This document shows, piece after piece, positions 5,898 to 12,702 of a stretch of 64,000 nt of DNA. Location: NCBI RefSeq assembly GCF_028714655.1, contig NZ_JAQTLY010000001.1, positions 124,001 to 188,000 of the forward strand, in the 5' to 3' direction. The first letter of the stretch is position 1, and the number at the start of each line of letters is the position of its first letter. The notes under the pieces were generated by a model that ran no database searches, was not told the DNA's origin, and was given only the letters and a program-made list of their open reading frames with translations. Made by a program: the position numbers and the translations under genes. The stretch comes from Sulfurimonas sp. (lineage in GTDB: Bacteria; Campylobacterota; Campylobacteria; Campylobacterales; Sulfurimonadaceae).

Positions 5898-6350
5898 ATG
5901 AAGAAAAATATTACGGCAAAAACATTCACACCGATTTATGATGAACTTGAAGACAGATTGAGGCTTGTCATAAACTATCAAGATATTTATAACAGAGTCG
6001 ATTTTATGATAACGAGAAATTTTATCTTAAATCTAATTCCTACTGCCGAAGAGTTTATGGCTAGACAGTACGGCATAGCCGATTTTGAAACAACTCCTCA
6101 TATAGAAACTAATGATAAAACTACTTCAAAAACGGATAGTGTAAATTTAGAACTTTTAAGAACAAACGATGATCTTTTGTTAGAGGTTAATTTCTCATAT
6201 GATCAAAACTTAAAACGAACTATTTTAACACTCAGCTCTAAAAGTACAACGGCAAAGGCTGATTTGGACGGTTTTATGCTGTCGCAAATATTTCAAGTGA
6301 TAAAATCGGCTATACCTTATATAAGATGGGGGATATCTTATCATTTTTGA
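5898..6350 (+). CDS. Conserved-looking protein of unknown function
   Basis: A 150-residue protein that I do not recognise. It has no signal peptide, no membrane segment and no cysteine. The start ATG lies 67 bases beyond tRNA-Thr, which is on the opposite strand. The middle is polar (ETNDKTTSKTDSVN) and the second half has alternating hydrophobic residues (LLLEVNFSYDQNLKRTILTLSS), suggesting a small beta-rich domain. Codon use resembles the housekeeping genes. It stands alone, followed by the repeat patch, so context gives no clue to its job. Confidence 0.65.
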   Translation: MKKNITAKTFTPIYDELEDRLRLVINYQDIYNRVDFMITRNFILNLIPTAEEFMARQYGIADFETTPHIETNDKTTSKTDSVNLELLRTNDDLLLEVNFSYDQNLKRTILTLSSKSTTAKADLDGFMLSQIFQVIKSAIPYIRWGISYHF

Positions 6351-6383
6351 TGTAGTCGGAGTGATGCTGTAGTCCAAGAGCGA

Positions 6384-6605
6384 GATTGCCGCGTCGCTTT
6401 GCTCCTCGCAATGACAAGGAAATGGATTGCTTCACTTTGTTCGCGATGACAAAGAAAGAAAAAGAGAGAGATTGCTTCACTGCGTTCGCAATGACAAAGG
6501 AGTGTCACTGCGAGGCTTTAGCCGTGGCAGTCTCAATGACAGGGCAAGAGAGAGATCGCTGCGCTTCGCTTGCAATGACGGAAGAGAGAAATCGCTTGCA
6601 ATGAC
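6384..6605 (+). repeat. Array of degenerate short repeats ending in CAATGAC
   Basis: Five direct copies of a unit running roughly GATTGC...TTCGC...AATGAC lie at 6384-6415, 6425-6450, 6470-6495, 6554-6579 and 6591-6605 (truncated), with one inverted copy at 6504-6534. Purine-rich spacers such as AAAGAGAGAG separate them. The same unit occurs as an inverted pair at 14061-14130. Open frames can be read through it but these are by-products of the repeat. Such GC-rich, potentially hairpin-forming intergenic units are common in this kind of genome. It fills most of the 370-base gap between 6350 and 6721. Confidence 0.8.
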
Positions 6606-6610
6606 ATGGT

Positions 6611-6659
6611 AATGACTCTGGCACCTATTTAAAAATATAAAAATGGTGTCGGAGTCATT
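6611..6659. repeat. Imperfect 15-bp inverted repeat just before the RAYT-SapC gene
   Basis: The arm AATGACTCTGGCACC (6611-6625) pairs with GGTGTCGGAGTCATT (6645-6659) with two mismatches around an AT-rich 19-base loop. It could form a REP-like hairpin in DNA or RNA and lies 61 bases before the TTG start of the RAYT-SapC gene. RAYT transposase genes are normally flanked by REP hairpins, so this may be a relic of such a site; it may also be the terminator or leader of the secretion operon. Confidence 0.6.
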
Positions 6660-6720
6660 TAATCGACTCTTAAGTTCTATTTGCATACAATTCAGTTTGA
6701 AAGTAAGTTAAGGAACTGAT

Positions 6721-8100
6721 TTGGCACGAAAAGTTAGAATTTTTGTTAAAGATTCTTCACAGCATGTGATACTAAAGAGTTTGGATAAGCTTACTGTTTT
6801 TAGAGACGAGTCGGACTACAGAGCATTTGCGGCTATTTTAAAAGAGTCTAGTGCAAATAATGATTTGGCTGTTCATGCCTATGTTTTGATGCCGAACTAT
6901 TTTGAATTTTTGGCTACTCCGTTAAATGAAGATGCTTTGTCGAAGTTTATGCAAAGCTTGGGTAGAAAATATGTCGGTTATTTTAACAAAAAGTACAATC
7001 GAACGGGAACTATTTGGGAAGGCAGATATAAATCTTCGCTTGTAGAAAATGATAAATTTCTTTTTGATGTTATGATTTATATAGAGAAGCTTGCTCCAAA
7101 AGAGCATCCCTTTAGCAGCATTTATAAAAATTTATATAACAAAAAAGATGATTTAGTCTCTTATCATAGTTTGTATAAAAAGTTGGGATTTACGGATGAG
7201 CAAAGAGTACAAAAGTACTCAACACTCTTTGACTCTAAAACAGACAAAAGCGAGTTTATAGCGACGAGTTTAGAAAAACAGAGTATTACCGGCAGTTTAG
7301 AGTTTATAAAAAATCTTGAAATAATAGTAGGAATGAGTCTCTCTTTAAAAGAGAGAGGCCGTCCTAAAAAAGATCATATTGAAAAAGGAAAAAAAATGTA
7401 CAAAAATTTAGCAATCTTAGATAAAGAAAAACACAAAGAGTTAAAGATAAATCCGTTGACGGATCTCAATTTTGCAAAATCGGCAACTCATATACCTGTT
7501 TTGGCTAGTGAAGTTTCACAAGTCGGTGAACTGTTTCCTATAGTTTTTACGGCAGATGAAAATCCGTCTCTAACAGCAGTCGTCTCTTTGGGAACTGATA
7601 GTTTGGCAATAACTGCGGACGGGAAATGGATAACTTCTTATGTTCCGTCATACTTAAGAAAGTATCCGTTTTCTTTGGCAAGTACGAAAGAAAATCCACA
7701 ACAGAAGGTGATTCTTATAGATGAGGACTCTTCGCTCTTTTCAAAATCAAAAGGCAAACAGCTTTTTAAAAAAGACGGCGAAAAGTCTGAAGTGCTGGAG
7801 CATGCTATTAATTTTTTAACTTCTTACGATACCCAAATGAGCGTTACTCAAAATGTGGCTAAAATTATTTCACAAAGCGGGATTCTTGAAGACAGAGAGA
7901 TTTCTGTAGGTGAGGGCGATGAGAAAAAAGTTTTGGTAAACGGGTTTAAAGTCGTAGATAGAGAAAAACTTAACGCACTGAGCGATGATATCTTAGCCGA
8001 CTGGGTTAGAAAAGGTATTATGACTATGATAGATGCACATCTAAAGTCATTAAACAATATCGGAACTCTTTTTGAAATAGCGCAAAAAAGACAGAGTTGA
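6721..8100 (+). CDS. Fusion of an inactivated RAYT/IS200-like transposase domain and a SapC domain
   Basis: A 459-residue protein with two domains. Residues about 1-165 follow the REP-associated (Y1_Tnp) transposase pattern: HAYVLMPN at 52-59, then GRKYVGYFNKKYNRTGTIWEGRYKS and a YIE motif near 120. The catalytic HUH pair is gone: the family's MPNHVHLL reads MPNYFEFL, with Tyr60 and Glu62 in place of both His. Residues about 250-455 match SapC: YVPSYLRKYPFSL, LIDEDSSLF, GKQLFKKDGE and AHLKSLNNIGTLF. In Campylobacter fetus sapC precedes sapDEF, the S-layer type I secretion genes; the same order is seen here. The start is TTG at 6721, with AAGGAAC a few bases upstream. It is probably a protein of the secretion system with a re-used nucleic-acid-binding domain. 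The role is inferred. Confidence 0.85.
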   Translation: MARKVRIFVKDSSQHVILKSLDKLTVFRDESDYRAFAAILKESSANNDLAVHAYVLMPNYFEFLATPLNEDALSKFMQSLGRKYVGYFNKKYNRTGTIWEGRYKSSLVENDKFLFDVMIYIEKLAPKEHPFSSIYKNLYNKKDDLVSYHSLYKKLGFTDEQRVQKYSTLFDSKTDKSEFIATSLEKQSITGSLEFIKNLEIIVGMSLSLKERGRPKKDHIEKGKKMYKNLAILDKEKHKELKINPLTDLNFAKSATHIPVLASEVSQVGELFPIVFTADENPSLTAVVSLGTDSLAITADGKWITSYVPSYLRKYPFSLASTKENPQQKVILIDEDSSLFSKSKGKQLFKKDGEKSEVLEHAINFLTSYDTQMSVTQNVAKIISQSGILEDREISVGEGDEKKVLVNGFKVVDREKLNALSDDILADWVRKGIMTMIDAHLKSLNNIGTLFEIAQKRQS

Positions 8101-8145
8101 TTTGGGTTGCGTGACATAGATAGAATTTTTATATAAAAGTTGACC

Positions 8146-8172
8146 TTACGCACTTTTTAAAAAAGAGCGTAA
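8146..8172. terminator. Hairpin after the RAYT-SapC gene
   Basis: TTACGCACTTTTT and AAAAAGAGCGTAA face each other with one mismatch across 27 bases, 45 bases after the stop at 8100. The AT-rich centre would open as loop. It may end transcription of the first gene or weaken read-through into the ABC exporter gene. The U-run on the 3' side is poor, so termination strength is uncertain. Confidence 0.5.
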
Positions 8173-8222
8173 AATACCTTGAAATTCTCGAAAAACATAT
8201 TTTTCGTAGCTTTAGGGGGTTG

Positions 8223-8265
8223 CAAGGGACATTTGTCCCTGACGCTAAATGGGCCTTGCTCATTT
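8223..8265 (+). promoter_or_regulatory. Double hairpin leader ahead of the secretion ABC exporter gene
   Basis: Two small hairpins lie in tandem. The first is a perfect AGGGACA/TGTCCCT pair (about 8225-8240). The second is AAATGGGC-CTT-GCTCATTT (8247-8265), which pairs with one G-T wobble. The second hairpin recurs almost unchanged at 22838-22856, there too about 30 bases before the start codon of an export operon. It may be a mobile REP-like repeat or a leader element affecting translation. Confidence 0.5.
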
Positions 8266-8294
8266 GGTGCATAACATCAGATAAAAGGAATCAA

Positions 8295-10094
8295 ATGGCA
8301 AAAAAACCGCTTAATGGACAAAAAGGTGATTTTTCTGAATTAAAAGAGGCTATATTAAAATCTAAAAAATCATTTATAATGGTTGGCTTTTTTAGTTTAG
8401 TTATAAATATACTGATGCTTGTTCCGTCACTATATATGCTACAGCTTTACGATAGGGTTATGGCAAGCAGAAGTCAAGATACGCTGATAATGCTTACGGG
8501 CATAGTGGTATTCTTATTTTTAGTAATGGCGCTTTTAGAAGTCGTAAGATCAAGAGTGCTTGTAAAAGTCGGAAATAAAATGGATAGTTTACTAAGTCAA
8601 AGAGTATTTGATTCCGTATTTGAACTAGCCCAAAAATATCCGGGAAAGGCATCTTCGATTCCGTTAAGCGATCTTACTCAGGTAAGACAGTTTATGACGG
8701 GAAACGGTCTTTTTGCTTTTTTTGATGCACCGTGGATGGTTATATATATAGCAGTCCTTTTTATGTTTCACCCTGTTTTTGGGTACTTTGCCATATTTGC
8801 CGCTATTGTTTTGGTCTGTATTACTATAGCAAACGAATATACTACAAAACAAAAACTCAGTGAGGCAAATAATCTTAGCAGATCTTCATCGGCATTTGTC
8901 GAAGCAAATCTAAGAAATGCTGAAATCGTTCATGCTATGGGTATGAAAGAGAATATTAGAAAAATATGGGAAGAGCGATATTTCGGTTTTTTAAATGCTC
9001 AAAATGATGCAAGCAACAGTGCGGGTATATGGTCAAATGCTTCTAAGAGTTTGCGTATGCTTTTTCAATCACTTATCCTTGGAATCGGCGGATATCTTGC
9101 CATTAAAGCGGAGTTGTCTCCGGGTATGATGATTGCAGGTTCTATTATCATGGGTAGGGCATTGGCTCCGCTTGATTTAATGATCGGCAGTTGGAAAGGG
9201 TTTAGCAGTGCTAGAGCTTCATATCAAAAACTTGACGGACTTTTAAATGAGTTTCCAAAAGATAAAGAGTATATGAAACTGCCTGCTCCGCAAGGTGAAA
9301 TTTTAATTGAAGGTGCCGTTGTAGCGCCTCCTGGTGCATCTCAGCCCTCTCTTCGCGGCATCTCTATGATGATTCAAAAAGGTGATGTAGTCGGTATAAT
9401 CGGACCTAGTGCAGCAGGGAAATCATCTCTTGCCAGAGTCATTTTAGGGCTTTGGCCGCTTGCAGCAGGAAAAGTCAGACTTGACAAAGCAGATATTTAC
9501 CAATGGGACAAACAAGAACTTGGAAATTACATAGGTTATTTGCCTCAGGATATAGAACTTTTTGAAGGAACCATTAGCCAAAATATAGCGAGATTTGGTG
9601 AAATCGACTCTCAAAAAGTTGTAGAAGCCGCACAAAGAGCAGGCGTTCACGAGATGATACTTAGGCTTCCTGAGGGTTACGATAGTAAAATCGGTGTAGG
9701 CGGTTTAGCACTCTCCGGCGGTCAAAGACAAAGAGTAGGACTTGCCAGAGCACTCTATAACAACCCTGTTTTAGTTGTTTTGGATGAGCCTAACTCAAAC
9801 TTGGACGATGCAGGTGAAATCGGACTTGTAAATGCTATTAACTACTTAAAACAGATAGGTTCTACCGTGATAATAATTACGCATAGACCGAGCATACTTC
9901 AAGTGACAAACAAATTAGCCCTAATCAAACAGGGAGCTTTAGAGTTGTATGGAAACACAAATGAAGTTTTAGCTCATCTGGCAAAAAATGCACAACAAGC
10001 TCAAGCGGCACAGCAGCAGCAGGCTCAGGCACAAGCAAGTCAGCAACAGCCGCAAAGTGCGCCTAAAATATCACTCAGCAAGCCTGAAAATTAA
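8295..10094 (+). CDS. Type I secretion ABC exporter (PrtD/SapD-like), permease-ATPase
   Basis: A 599-residue half-transporter with about five or six membrane segments in residues 25-290 and an ATPase domain. Walker A GPSAAGKSS is at 370-378, the signature LSGGQ at 473-477 and Walker B VVLDEP near 494-499. It drives export of an unfolded protein straight from the cytoplasm through the adaptor and TolC-like genes that follow. There is no N-terminal peptidase domain, so this is the PrtD type rather than the bacteriocin type. The C-terminus carries an Ala/Gln-rich tail (about residues 560-590). ATG 8295 is chosen over upstream in-frame codons because AAAGGAA lies just before it. In C. fetus the matching gene is sapD. 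No exported substrate gene is seen in the window. Confidence 0.92.
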   Translation: MAKKPLNGQKGDFSELKEAILKSKKSFIMVGFFSLVINILMLVPSLYMLQLYDRVMASRSQDTLIMLTGIVVFLFLVMALLEVVRSRVLVKVGNKMDSLLSQRVFDSVFELAQKYPGKASSIPLSDLTQVRQFMTGNGLFAFFDAPWMVIYIAVLFMFHPVFGYFAIFAAIVLVCITIANEYTTKQKLSEANNLSRSSSAFVEANLRNAEIVHAMGMKENIRKIWEERYFGFLNAQNDASNSAGIWSNASKSLRMLFQSLILGIGGYLAIKAELSPGMMIAGSIIMGRALAPLDLMIGSWKGFSSARASYQKLDGLLNEFPKDKEYMKLPAPQGEILIEGAVVAPPGASQPSLRGISMMIQKGDVVGIIGPSAAGKSSLARVILGLWPLAAGKVRLDKADIYQWDKQELGNYIGYLPQDIELFEGTISQNIARFGEIDSQKVVEAAQRAGVHEMILRLPEGYDSKIGVGGLALSGGQRQRVGLARALYNNPVLVVLDEPNSNLDDAGEIGLVNAINYLKQIGSTVIIITHRPSILQVTNKLALIKQGALELYGNTNEVLAHLAKNAQQAQAAQQQQAQAQASQQQPQSAPKISLSKPEN

Positions 10095-10103
10095 GGAAAA
10101 ATT

Positions 10104-11402
10104 ATGAGCGAAAATAGAGATATAAAAATGCCGTCTACAAATGATTCTAAAGTTATCGGATTTGGACTTGGAGTGATTTTTTTACTCTTTGCGGTGTTTG
10201 GCGGCTGGATGACTTTTGCTCCGCTTGCCGAATCTGTAGTGGCAATCGGAAAGATTTCTGCCGATTTGGATAAAAAAACACTTCAGCATTTAGAGGGCGG
10301 AGTTATAGAGAACATATATGTAAAAGACGGCGATGAGGTAAAAAAAGATGATCTTCTTTTAAAGCTAAAAGATATAAATATAAAAAGTCAGCTTGATATC
10401 TTTAAAACACAATATGACGATGCGTCGGCTTTGTATGCGAGACTTGTAGCTCAAAGAGACAATTTAGGCAGCGTTGTTTATCCCGACGAACTTAAGAATG
10501 AGAGTATCAAAAAAGAGCAAAACAGTATATTTTTTGAAACAAAAAAGAGTATAGAAGATGAAAAAATTATCTCTCAAAACAGAGTGGTACAGCTTGAAAA
10601 TCAGATAAGCGGTTTAAAATCTTTGATGGAAGCTAAAAAGAGCAGAATGAGTTCGATAAGCGAAGAGATTTTAGAGTGGGAAAAGCTTTTTAAAGAGCAG
10701 TTGGTCGATAAGCTAAAGATAAGAGATTTAAGCAGAGAAAAAAATATGATTGAGGGAGACATCTCTCAAACGGCTTCTGAGATAGCAAAGCTTTCCGAAG
10801 CTATAAACGAGACTAAAAATCAACAATTGCTTAGAGAAAAAGAGTTTACAAAAGTGACTCTAAACGATCTTGTAAAAGCGAAATCTATGCTTTTTGACCT
10901 GCAATCAAAAATAGCCTCTATCGAAGATATGCTCTCAAGAACAAATATAGTATCTCCGATTGACGGAACTGTTGTCGGTTTAAGCTTGCATACGATTGGA
11001 GGCGTTGTTCCTCCGGGTAGAGATATACTGCAGATAATACCGCAAAAATCAAAGCTTATAGTTATAGCTCAGGTTCAAATAACGGATATCGACAAAGTTA
11101 AAGTCGGGCTTATGGCAGATATTAGATTTTCAGCTTTTAACACGCGTCACACCCAAGTCATAGAAGGTAAAGTAGTACATGTCTCAGCCGATAGTTTTAA
11201 GGATGAGAAAAATGGCGCACAGTATTATGAAGCAAAAATCGAAGTGACAAAAAATGGAGAGAAGCAGATAACAGAATATGGTTTTGAGCTTGTTTCAGGT
11301 ATGCCTGCGGAAGTAATGATAAAAATTTCGGAGAGAACAATGCTTAGTTATTTTGTAAAACCTCTTACCGATATGATAAGTAGGGCATTCAATGAAGAGT
11401 AA
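10104..11402 (+). CDS. Type I secretion membrane fusion protein (HlyD/PrtE/SapE-like)
   Basis: A 432-residue adaptor with a short cytoplasmic N-terminus, one membrane segment (about residues 18-40, IGFGLGVIFLLFAVFGGWM), a lipoyl-like half motif (QHLEGGVIENIYVKDGDEVKK) and a long periplasmic coiled coil (about 100-275). The second lipoyl half follows (VSPIDGTVVGLSLHTIGGVVPPG), then a beta-barrel region. It bridges the inner-membrane exporter and the outer-membrane channel. It starts 9 bases after the exporter gene and overlaps the TolC-like gene by 11 bases. It corresponds to SapE of C. fetus. Confidence 0.92.
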   Translation: MSENRDIKMPSTNDSKVIGFGLGVIFLLFAVFGGWMTFAPLAESVVAIGKISADLDKKTLQHLEGGVIENIYVKDGDEVKKDDLLLKLKDINIKSQLDIFKTQYDDASALYARLVAQRDNLGSVVYPDELKNESIKKEQNSIFFETKKSIEDEKIISQNRVVQLENQISGLKSLMEAKKSRMSSISEEILEWEKLFKEQLVDKLKIRDLSREKNMIEGDISQTASEIAKLSEAINETKNQQLLREKEFTKVTLNDLVKAKSMLFDLQSKIASIEDMLSRTNIVSPIDGTVVGLSLHTIGGVVPPGRDILQIIPQKSKLIVIAQVQITDIDKVKVGLMADIRFSAFNTRHTQVIEGKVVHVSADSFKDEKNGAQYYEAKIEVTKNGEKQITEYGFELVSGMPAEVMIKISERTMLSYFVKPLTDMISRAFNEE

Positions 11403-12702
11403 TAAATATACGCTTTGTCTGTTTCTGTGCGGACTGTTATTTAGCGGTGCGGATGCCGAAGTTTTAAATTTTTCAAGAGCGTACGGGCTTGCTCTTGAAA
11501 ATGCGAACAATATTCGTTCATCCGTTTATGTCTCAGAAGCGGAAAAAGAGAAGATAAAACAAGAAGAGTCTCAACTTTATCCTCAAATAAATTTCTCTAC
11601 ATCATATAAAAAGTCGGAGTTAGAAGCGAATCCGACAGGACATATGACAAGACAAGGTTTGATAACTTACTCGCTTAGCGCCAGACAATCTATTTATAAT
11701 CCTGAAACTTACACAAGAATAGATATGCAGGAGTCAAGAAGCAAATATTCAGGAATAAAAGTTGAATATGAAAAAGAAGATTTGGCTCAAAAGCTCTTTA
11801 AAACATATCTTGATATTTTAAAATCACAAAACAAGATAAGATTGTTGGAATCTTATCTTGAGTACAATAGATCTAAACTTGAACAGTTAAGCAAAAAATT
11901 TGATATGGATATGTCAAATAAGATGGATCTGCTTCAAATGAGGGTCGAGTATAATTCTGCGCAGATAGAGCTTGACAAAGAGAGCAAGTTATTTCATGTT
12001 TATGATCTGAAATTTAAACAATATGTCGGAAACATTGAATATGAACTACCAAAAATTGAGTCTGACAAGCTGATTTTAGAAACCATAAAAGAGATGAAAG
12101 CGCAAGTTTTAGGCAAGAGCGATTTGGAAAAAAGTTTAAAGGTTAAACAAGCCGAGGCAGCGGTTGAGATATCTAACTCGGAGTTGGAAAATGCAAAAAG
12201 CGGACACTTGCCAAAAGTGACTTTTGATGCGGCATACTCAAAGTATGATACCGATACTCCGACTATTGACGCGCCTTATGACAATACCAGCTATGCAATG
12301 ATTAGCTTCAATATGCCGATTTACAGCGGCGGTTATGTTTCATCAAGGGTTGATTCATCCAGACTTATGAGAAAAGCTGCCGGCGAAGATTTGGAAAATG
12401 CAAAAAAAGAGGTTCTCGTACAGCATGGTGAATATTTAGCAATCTTTGAAGCTTCGGCAGAATCGGTCGGTATGTATAAAAAAGCTCTTGAATCGGCGGA
12501 ACTTTACCTGCAAGCGATAAATCAAGGGTATGATTACGGACTTAAAAGTATTATTGATCTAAACGATGCTAAAAATAAACTAAATGAAGTAAAATACAAA
12601 TATGTAGAAAATATGTATGAGATGGTAAACTCATATATCGGACTTTTAATGGTTACGAATAACTTTAAAGAGTTAAATCTCTTGGATAAATTAGTAGAAT
12701 AG
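11392..12702 (+). CDS. TolC-like outer membrane protein (PrtF/SapF-like)
   Basis: A 436-residue outer-membrane efflux protein. A signal peptide is clear (basic MKSNK, then a hydrophobic run to GADAE around residue 23). Two repeated alpha-hairpin halves follow, rich in Lys, Glu and Leu, with the strand-forming segment AYSKYDTDTPTID and NMPIYSGGYVSSRV typical of the family's conserved regions. It should form the trimeric channel for the secretion system encoded just upstream, whose adaptor gene it overlaps by 11 bases. Order and content match sapF of C. fetus. Confidence 0.9.
   Translation: MKSNKYTLCLFLCGLLFSGADAEVLNFSRAYGLALENANNIRSSVYVSEAEKEKIKQEESQLYPQINFSTSYKKSELEANPTGHMTRQGLITYSLSARQSIYNPETYTRIDMQESRSKYSGIKVEYEKEDLAQKLFKTYLDILKSQNKIRLLESYLEYNRSKLEQLSKKFDMDMSNKMDLLQMRVEYNSAQIELDKESKLFHVYDLKFKQYVGNIEYELPKIESDKLILETIKEMKAQVLGKSDLEKSLKVKQAEAAVEISNSELENAKSGHLPKVTFDAAYSKYDTDTPTIDAPYDNTSYAMISFNMPIYSGGYVSSRVDSSRLMRKAAGEDLENAKKEVLVQHGEYLAIFEASAESVGMYKKALESAELYLQAINQGYDYGLKSIIDLNDAKNKLNEVKYKYVENMYEMVNSYIGLLMVTNNFKELNLLDKLVE

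Follow-up and report, generated by a model that had tools for sequence, protein, structure and literature searches.

Why does a gene at the head of a type I secretion operon join a transposase-like domain to SapC, and what might that domain do there? SapC is a protein of unknown function found beside S-layer exporters, and RAYT-type proteins have long been suspected to be domesticated. Both meet in a single gene of the Sulfurimonas window (the whole stretch of 64,000 nucleotides that was analysed). Should SapC turn out to bear a regulator that descends from a transposase and recognises what was once the end of its own transposon, there would be a testable route to the control of S-layer or RTX export and an example of what RAYT-type proteins can become. 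A literature search of limited reach found no paper on a Y1-SapC fusion.

Structure and distribution of the fusion gene

The fusion gene (6721..8100, forward strand, as are all features described here) has a TTG start and an open frame of 459 amino acids. The original prediction assigned its residues 1-165 to a RAYT pattern and its C-terminal half to SapC, and Pfam profiles agreed with both assignments: Y1_Tnp (PF01797) scored 33.2 bits against a cut-off of 23 over residues 11-122 (E 6.5e-8), and SapC (PF07277) matched residues 233-450 above cut-off over the full profile, 1-220 (E 1.2e-59). The Y1/RAYT fold covers residues 1-186 (6721..7278), a possibly AT-hook-like RGRPKK linker lies at residues 212-217 (7354..7371), and the SapC domain, which is probably also a separate product, extends from ATG 7396 (Met226) to 8100. 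TIRYTs, or TnpA_Y1 subclass 2.1, are common in epsilonproteobacteria (PMC3733652, PMC6006769). The close HUH relatives of the fusion are stand-alone proteins of about 220 residues in which NPRGRPKK and a few further residues come just before the stop codon; the majority of their genes have inverted repeats on either side (GGGGACAGGCTACTTTAA and its complement). Because RGRPKK at 212-217, the C-terminal end of stand-alone TIRYTs, is followed by the SapC start Met at 226, the fusion unites a whole TIRYT with a whole SapC. The best explanation is that a complete TIRYT-type Y1 transposase gene, similar to TnpA_Y1 subclass 2.1, became fused in frame, its end to the beginning of sapC, at the head of the secretion operon and brought its left terminal inverted repeat (TIR) and promoter with it.

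The nearest named relative, Sulfurimonas sp. STA_12, has 95% identity across the whole fusion protein, and full-length open fusions occur in about 20 other Campylobacterota genomes (58-95% identity), which rules out an assembly error as the origin of the fusion. Full-length relatives were confined to Campylobacterota in a genome-contig search with the fusion protein, a search that reaches close relatives only. Nearly all orthologues start the long form with TTG, and two with GTG. The protein is single-copy in the window's genome, whose one further Y1 match, an ordinary HUH protein (MTNHYHLL), is encoded on a different contig. The genomes with fusions do not show the several mobile copies of an active insertion sequence; each has one full copy in a fixed operon, with the exception of G093. 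That genome has two copies of the locus made up of a conserved 150-aa open reading frame (ORF) and the fusion (L142, L143). In the Sulfurimonas isolate BM502 (L010:8001-9383), the fusion has an in-frame stop at codon 109, and the internal SapC start is intact.

The predicted position at the head of a type I secretion operon was also borne out. Immediately after SapC are genes for a type I secretion ABC exporter of the PrtD subfamily (8295..10094; E 7e-229 to TIGR01842) and, by profile match, an HlyD-type membrane fusion protein (10104..11402) and a TolC-type outer-membrane protein (11392..12702). The start of the exporter gene is probably ATG 8295 instead of 8220. Upstream is the 150-aa ORF (5898..6350), which has no Pfam family; most relatives encode a homologue in the same place (34-91% identical), and the order 150-aa ORF, palindrome, fusion, PrtD, HlyD, TolC is near-universal among them. 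In two families this ORF goes together with SapC loci, and in a third it adjoins a stand-alone SapC (L138:10404-10889). In three genomes, an HUH TIRYT gene and a gene for a trypsin/Calx-beta protease are located a few kb upstream of the fusion (L124:12096-14276, L144:2047-5673, L145:64-5136, L002); such a pair also occurs in the window's genome, where it lies on contig C10 within a few kb of an RTX gene.

Loss of the active site and retention of the fold

The original prediction held that both catalytic histidines were replaced and that the tyrosine of the YIE motif remained. The window protein indeed has N-Y-F-E (Y60-F61-E62) in place of N-H-x-H, and Tyr120 lies within YIE. HUH is found in none of the 20 aligned Sulfurimonas-type fusions, all of which have an invariant F61-E62-F63, including Glu at the second His position. 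This suggests, from the alignment, that the old active site on the former HUH strand has been reused and not simply lost. Tyr120 is kept in 18 of these 20 orthologues; in the other two it is His, so the tyrosine is not strictly needed. Mean identity among the 20 proteins is 86% for the HUH strand and 83% for SapC. It is 87% for the REP-stem helix, which in TnpA_REP contacts the stem of REP (PMC8266576); together with the NR-GT-W-GRYK segment, this helix ranks among the best-kept parts in Sulfurimonas.

The structure model agrees with the profile match. In the AlphaFold2 model, pLDDT is >90 for the greater part of the N-domain and residues 211-224 form a disordered linker; the best PDB match of model residues 1-186 was 4er8, TnpA_REP with its REP hairpin (Z 15.3, 2.6 A, 152 residues), so the expected structural match to Y1 transposases is present. 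N-domain dN/dS values were 0.08-0.17 in Sulfurimonas pairs, 0.11 in a pair of HUH-containing fusions and 0.04 in a pair of Campylobacter-type proteins, similar to those of SapC. Because the HUH loss is common to all Sulfurimonas-type orthologues and the domain is under purifying selection, we consider it domesticated, as had been proposed; the dead site is maintained, not drifting.

Order of fusion, erosion and loss

Whether the HUH loss is shared among SapC proteins with this domain had been proposed as a check. It is shared by all Sulfurimonas-type fusions, but the same fusion at the same operon has an intact HUH (NHVH, NHIH, THIH) in all three fusions of f10, a sister family within the order (L097, L098, L099). 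Genomes of this family are probably Sulfurospirillum-like. Their fusions have YIExxPVR at the tyrosine. Intact-HUH orthologues in mobile copies had been named as the case that would speak against domestication; these orthologues are single-copy at the operon and not mobile, so they date the HUH loss and do not refute domestication.

A second family, f3, has loci that look like Campylobacter sap loci, with SapC, exporter genes and adjoining large RTX-type genes, and we infer that its genomes are Campylobacter-like. The SapC of these loci has about 143 extra N-terminal residues, a shortened domain. When compared with HUH TIRYTs by profile, this stretch matched with probability 96.7 (E 4e-10), which identifies the extension as an eroded form of the Y1 domain; the original prediction did not include this eroded domain or the internal SapC start described below. 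In genus g32, close relatives have a SapC that stands alone and apart from exporter genes.

In the SapC tree, fusions with and without HUH formed one clade (100/97), Campylobacter-type proteins were sister to this clade (99/92), and the g32 proteins were nested within the Campylobacter type. The intact-HUH sister fusions and the eroded Campylobacter-type version indicate that the fusion came first and that HUH was lost at least two times. The best fit to these sequences is a single fusion, after which HUH disappeared on at least two occasions and the entire domain on one. The surviving intermediates open the proposed path from enzyme to regulator to direct experiment.

Inverted repeat and promoter-like box upstream of the fusion

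Two nearby hairpins had been put forward as targets of the domain, and only one of them retained its standing. The hairpin at 8223-8265 is real, but it belongs to an intergenic copy (8101..8294) of a dispersed repeat, outside the conserved system. This repeat is up to about 190 bp long and has 27 other matches in the window's genome; the copy between sapC and the exporter gene carries the palindrome GGGACATTTGTCCC. Most relatives lack the repeat, and their gap between sapC and the ABC gene is mostly 1-91 bp. This hairpin was therefore rejected as a partner site.

The hairpin at 6611-6659 is real and conserved. Its left arm (AATGACTCTGGCACC, 6611..6625) is conserved in 21 of 21 aligned upstream regions, and its right arm (GGTGTCGGAGTCATT, 6645..6659) has the place and type of a TIRYT left TIR. 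All 21 orthologues for which upstream sequence exists have the inverted repeat, at about 55-65 nt from the start, and TTAAG and a TAYAAT-like box come after it; in the window the two form a predicted promoter-like TTAAGT ... TACAAT (6670..6691, -10 at 6686-6691), conserved in the orthologue alignment, and the sequence of the long form has a Shine-Dalgarno AAGGA at 6710..6714. The repeat belongs to the fusion gene, since it stays where the upstream gene differs or is inverted, and for the same reason it was rejected as a terminator of that gene. A sigma-54 promoter (TGGCAC) was also rejected because a correctly spaced GC at -12 is missing. In the window, an array of short TCGCAATGACA-type repeats (6353-6610) separates the 150-aa ORF from the conserved hairpin; L005 and L010 have similar repeats at the same spot, and L007 and L009 have another repeat type there, as if it were a repeat hotspot.

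The HUH-containing fusions have perfect palindromes upstream (AAGTATCTGACCCTA ... TAGGGTCAGATACTT), with a compensatory change in one of the three. Their right arm is located at the TIRYT left-TIR distance (about 56 nt) and is similar to TIRYT TIRs, with shuffle p <=0.012 against several of the seven that were used. Sulfurimonas right arms match these TIRs weakly (p ~0.07 at best), and for them the likeness is no more than suggestive. Taken one at a time, Sulfurimonas sequences often have an imperfect repeat that does not surpass AT-rich shuffles, and its support comes only from conservation. In the five Campylobacter-type loci with an eroded domain, the half-site TACTCTGGCAC occurs once each; a single half-site (TACTCTGGCACTTTTT) is left in these loci, and the other arm is gone although the gene persists. 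The half-site is absent from eight loci (five genomes) of relatives without the domain.

The window's genome has no second copy of the paired site at <=3 mismatches, which led us to reject a regulon-wide site. The half-site alone has 13 matches in the genome, two of which are the two arms (control 6). No further exact palindrome copies were found in the HUH-containing genomes; one of these, G441, has one single-mismatch half-site elsewhere. Uniqueness of the site in the window's genome and in these genomes speaks for an operator, not for a mobile family. Could the fusion protein still be mobile, or process DNA at its palindrome with an altered active site? The existence of HUH-containing orthologues and the invariant Glu at the second His position in the forms without HUH are in its favour. 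This explanation is nevertheless highly unlikely: the gene is single-copy in a fixed operon, the palindrome pair is single-copy in HUH-containing genomes with no dispersed copies, and in Sulfurimonas both His are lost and the Tyr is variable.

Taken from its conservation and position, the inverted repeat at 6611-6659 is a credible target of the fusion protein. Because it lies upstream of the -10 box, it would act as a DNA site or be present in read-through RNA only. Its position upstream of the promoter and its match to the TIR class make DNA at an operator a likely target, in preference to mRNA. The domain might instead recognise a single-stranded form of the hairpin, either DNA, perhaps at replication forks, or RNA, perhaps in mRNA that reads through from the 150-aa gene, and affect message stability or processing. 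The hairpins that Y1 proteins recognise are single-stranded; recognition is strand-specific and includes contacts with mid-stem mismatches, as in REP binding by TnpA_REP (PMC8266576). Most Sulfurimonas repeats have a mid-stem A.G mismatch and G.T wobbles, the asymmetry expected for strand-specific reading. We find this doubtful, since the site would be missing from the operon's own mRNA and several species keep it where the upstream gene is different or inverted.

Internal SapC start

An internal Shine-Dalgarno sequence, AAGGA (7385..7389), is located 6 nt before ATG 7396. AAGGA lies 5-7 nt before the ATG at the SapC boundary in 28 of 29 orthologous genes; under a null of random codons for the same amino acids, the mean was 3.3 genes and the maximum 12 in 2000 draws, figures that overstate the independence of cases because the sequences are related. 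Before other in-frame ATGs it was found once in 193 cases. The amino acids encoded at this position differ (Gly GGA, Arg AGG, or Lys-Asp AAGGAT). Retention of both AAGGA and ATG in these 28 genes indicates that free SapC is probably also made from the internal ATG.

This start bears on whether the transposase half is a functionless remnant, decaying and carried along because SapC is needed. The catalytic residues have been lost at least two times, and the domain is shortened in Campylobacter-type loci and lost in some, as decay would predict. However, selection (dN/dS about 0.1, with open frames across about 20 species) largely refutes this, the FEF motif is new and invariant, and, as the internal start could supply free SapC by itself, a separate reason is needed for the N-domain frame to stay open. 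We regard a remnant as extremely improbable.

Proposed regulation of the export operon

In these sulfur-oxidising Campylobacterota, loss of the cutting site and retention of a hairpin-binding fold suggest regulation of the export operon that the gene heads. The fold, the HUH loss, selection, the fixed site with its promoter-like box and the internal start can be read from the sequences; binding to the site, control of the operon and sensing through SapC are proposed steps. In the mechanism that we propose, and to which we give an even chance from the sequence evidence, TTG-started, low-level RAYT-SapC would autoregulate the operon through its own TIR palindrome. The long product would be made at a low level, since the TTG start would keep it scarce. 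It would bind the palindrome beside the promoter, assisted by the AT-hook-like linker, and in the bound state set transcription of sapC and the exporter; autorepression is our default guess for the direction of control. The internal ATG would supply free SapC for its role in secretion, and the SapC half of the fusion could inform the half bound to DNA of the secretion state, such as free exporter or cargo not yet secreted. Binding of single-stranded hairpins and not double-stranded operators by Y1 proteins (PMC8266576) counts against this mechanism, as do the arm missing from Campylobacter-type loci that keep the gene and the His in place of the tyrosine in two of the 20 Sulfurimonas-type proteins.

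The SapC model is good (pLDDT 92.9), but it had no Foldseek match in the PDB at E 0.001, and none of the chains set against it by VIA exceeded Z 2.3. A function for SapC from its fold was therefore rejected, and the sensing role is a guess.

Alternatively, the RAYT-derived half could be an interaction or scaffolding module for SapC and the exporter, with another regulator reading the palindrome. The Campylobacter-type domain is shortened yet selected (dN/dS 0.04) beside a half-site only, and it may no longer bind hairpins, which a scaffold would accommodate. Conservation of the REP-stem helix and the NR-GT-W-GRYK segment in Sulfurimonas, the TIR-type palindrome of the HUH-containing fusions and the absence of the half-site where the domain is lost argue against it, and we hold a scaffold to be possible but unlikely. 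Returning to autoregulation, the broadest form of our proposal is that a transposase became a secretion-coupled regulator: one gene would give a rare TIR-binding RAYT-SapC sensor-regulator and free SapC, and its whole history (catalytic fusion, dead fusion, eroded domain, loss) would be readable in living Campylobacterota, including the SapC of Campylobacter-type S-layer systems. We propose this tentatively, with somewhat less than an even chance of being correct.

Comparison with known systems

As far as its fusion point, the window gene is of the same length as TIRYTs (about 225 aa; PMC3733652, PMC6006769), and its residues 212-217 correspond to the RGRPKK end of the close relatives L101-L110. 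Both have a left TIR of GGGGWSAS type upstream, about 56 nt from the start, with a -10-like box after it. Unlike TIRYTs, the window protein is fused to SapC, has lost HUH in its lineage and is single-copy. TIRYTs have TIRs on both gene sides; no TIR was seen after the fusion gene in the stretches examined, and both arms of the fusion are head-to-head upstream.

The closest parallel is TldR, which arose from TnpB, an IS200/IS605 nuclease, and regulates flagellin (PMC13418256). The two cases are alike in that a protein of an IS200/IS605-group element was, or here would have been, turned into a regulator of a surface structure; they differ in that the protein here is of the Y1 (TnpA) type and its regulatory role is a proposal. 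Campylobacter fetus SapC, encoded in sapCDEF (PMC4943207), also lies directly before exporter genes, and Campylobacter-type SapC has an eroded form of the same N-domain, whereas in the window the complete domain has been retained, as has the palindrome. E. coli RAYT/TnpA_REP (4er8; PMC8266576) shares the fold (Z 15.3) and a hairpin with a mid-stem mismatch near its gene; the window protein differs in lacking HUH and a GTAG-tagged REP family and in having the extra SapC domain. Judged by HUH, the window protein fails as a transposase, and it is plausible that it works like a hairpin-binding RAYT protein.
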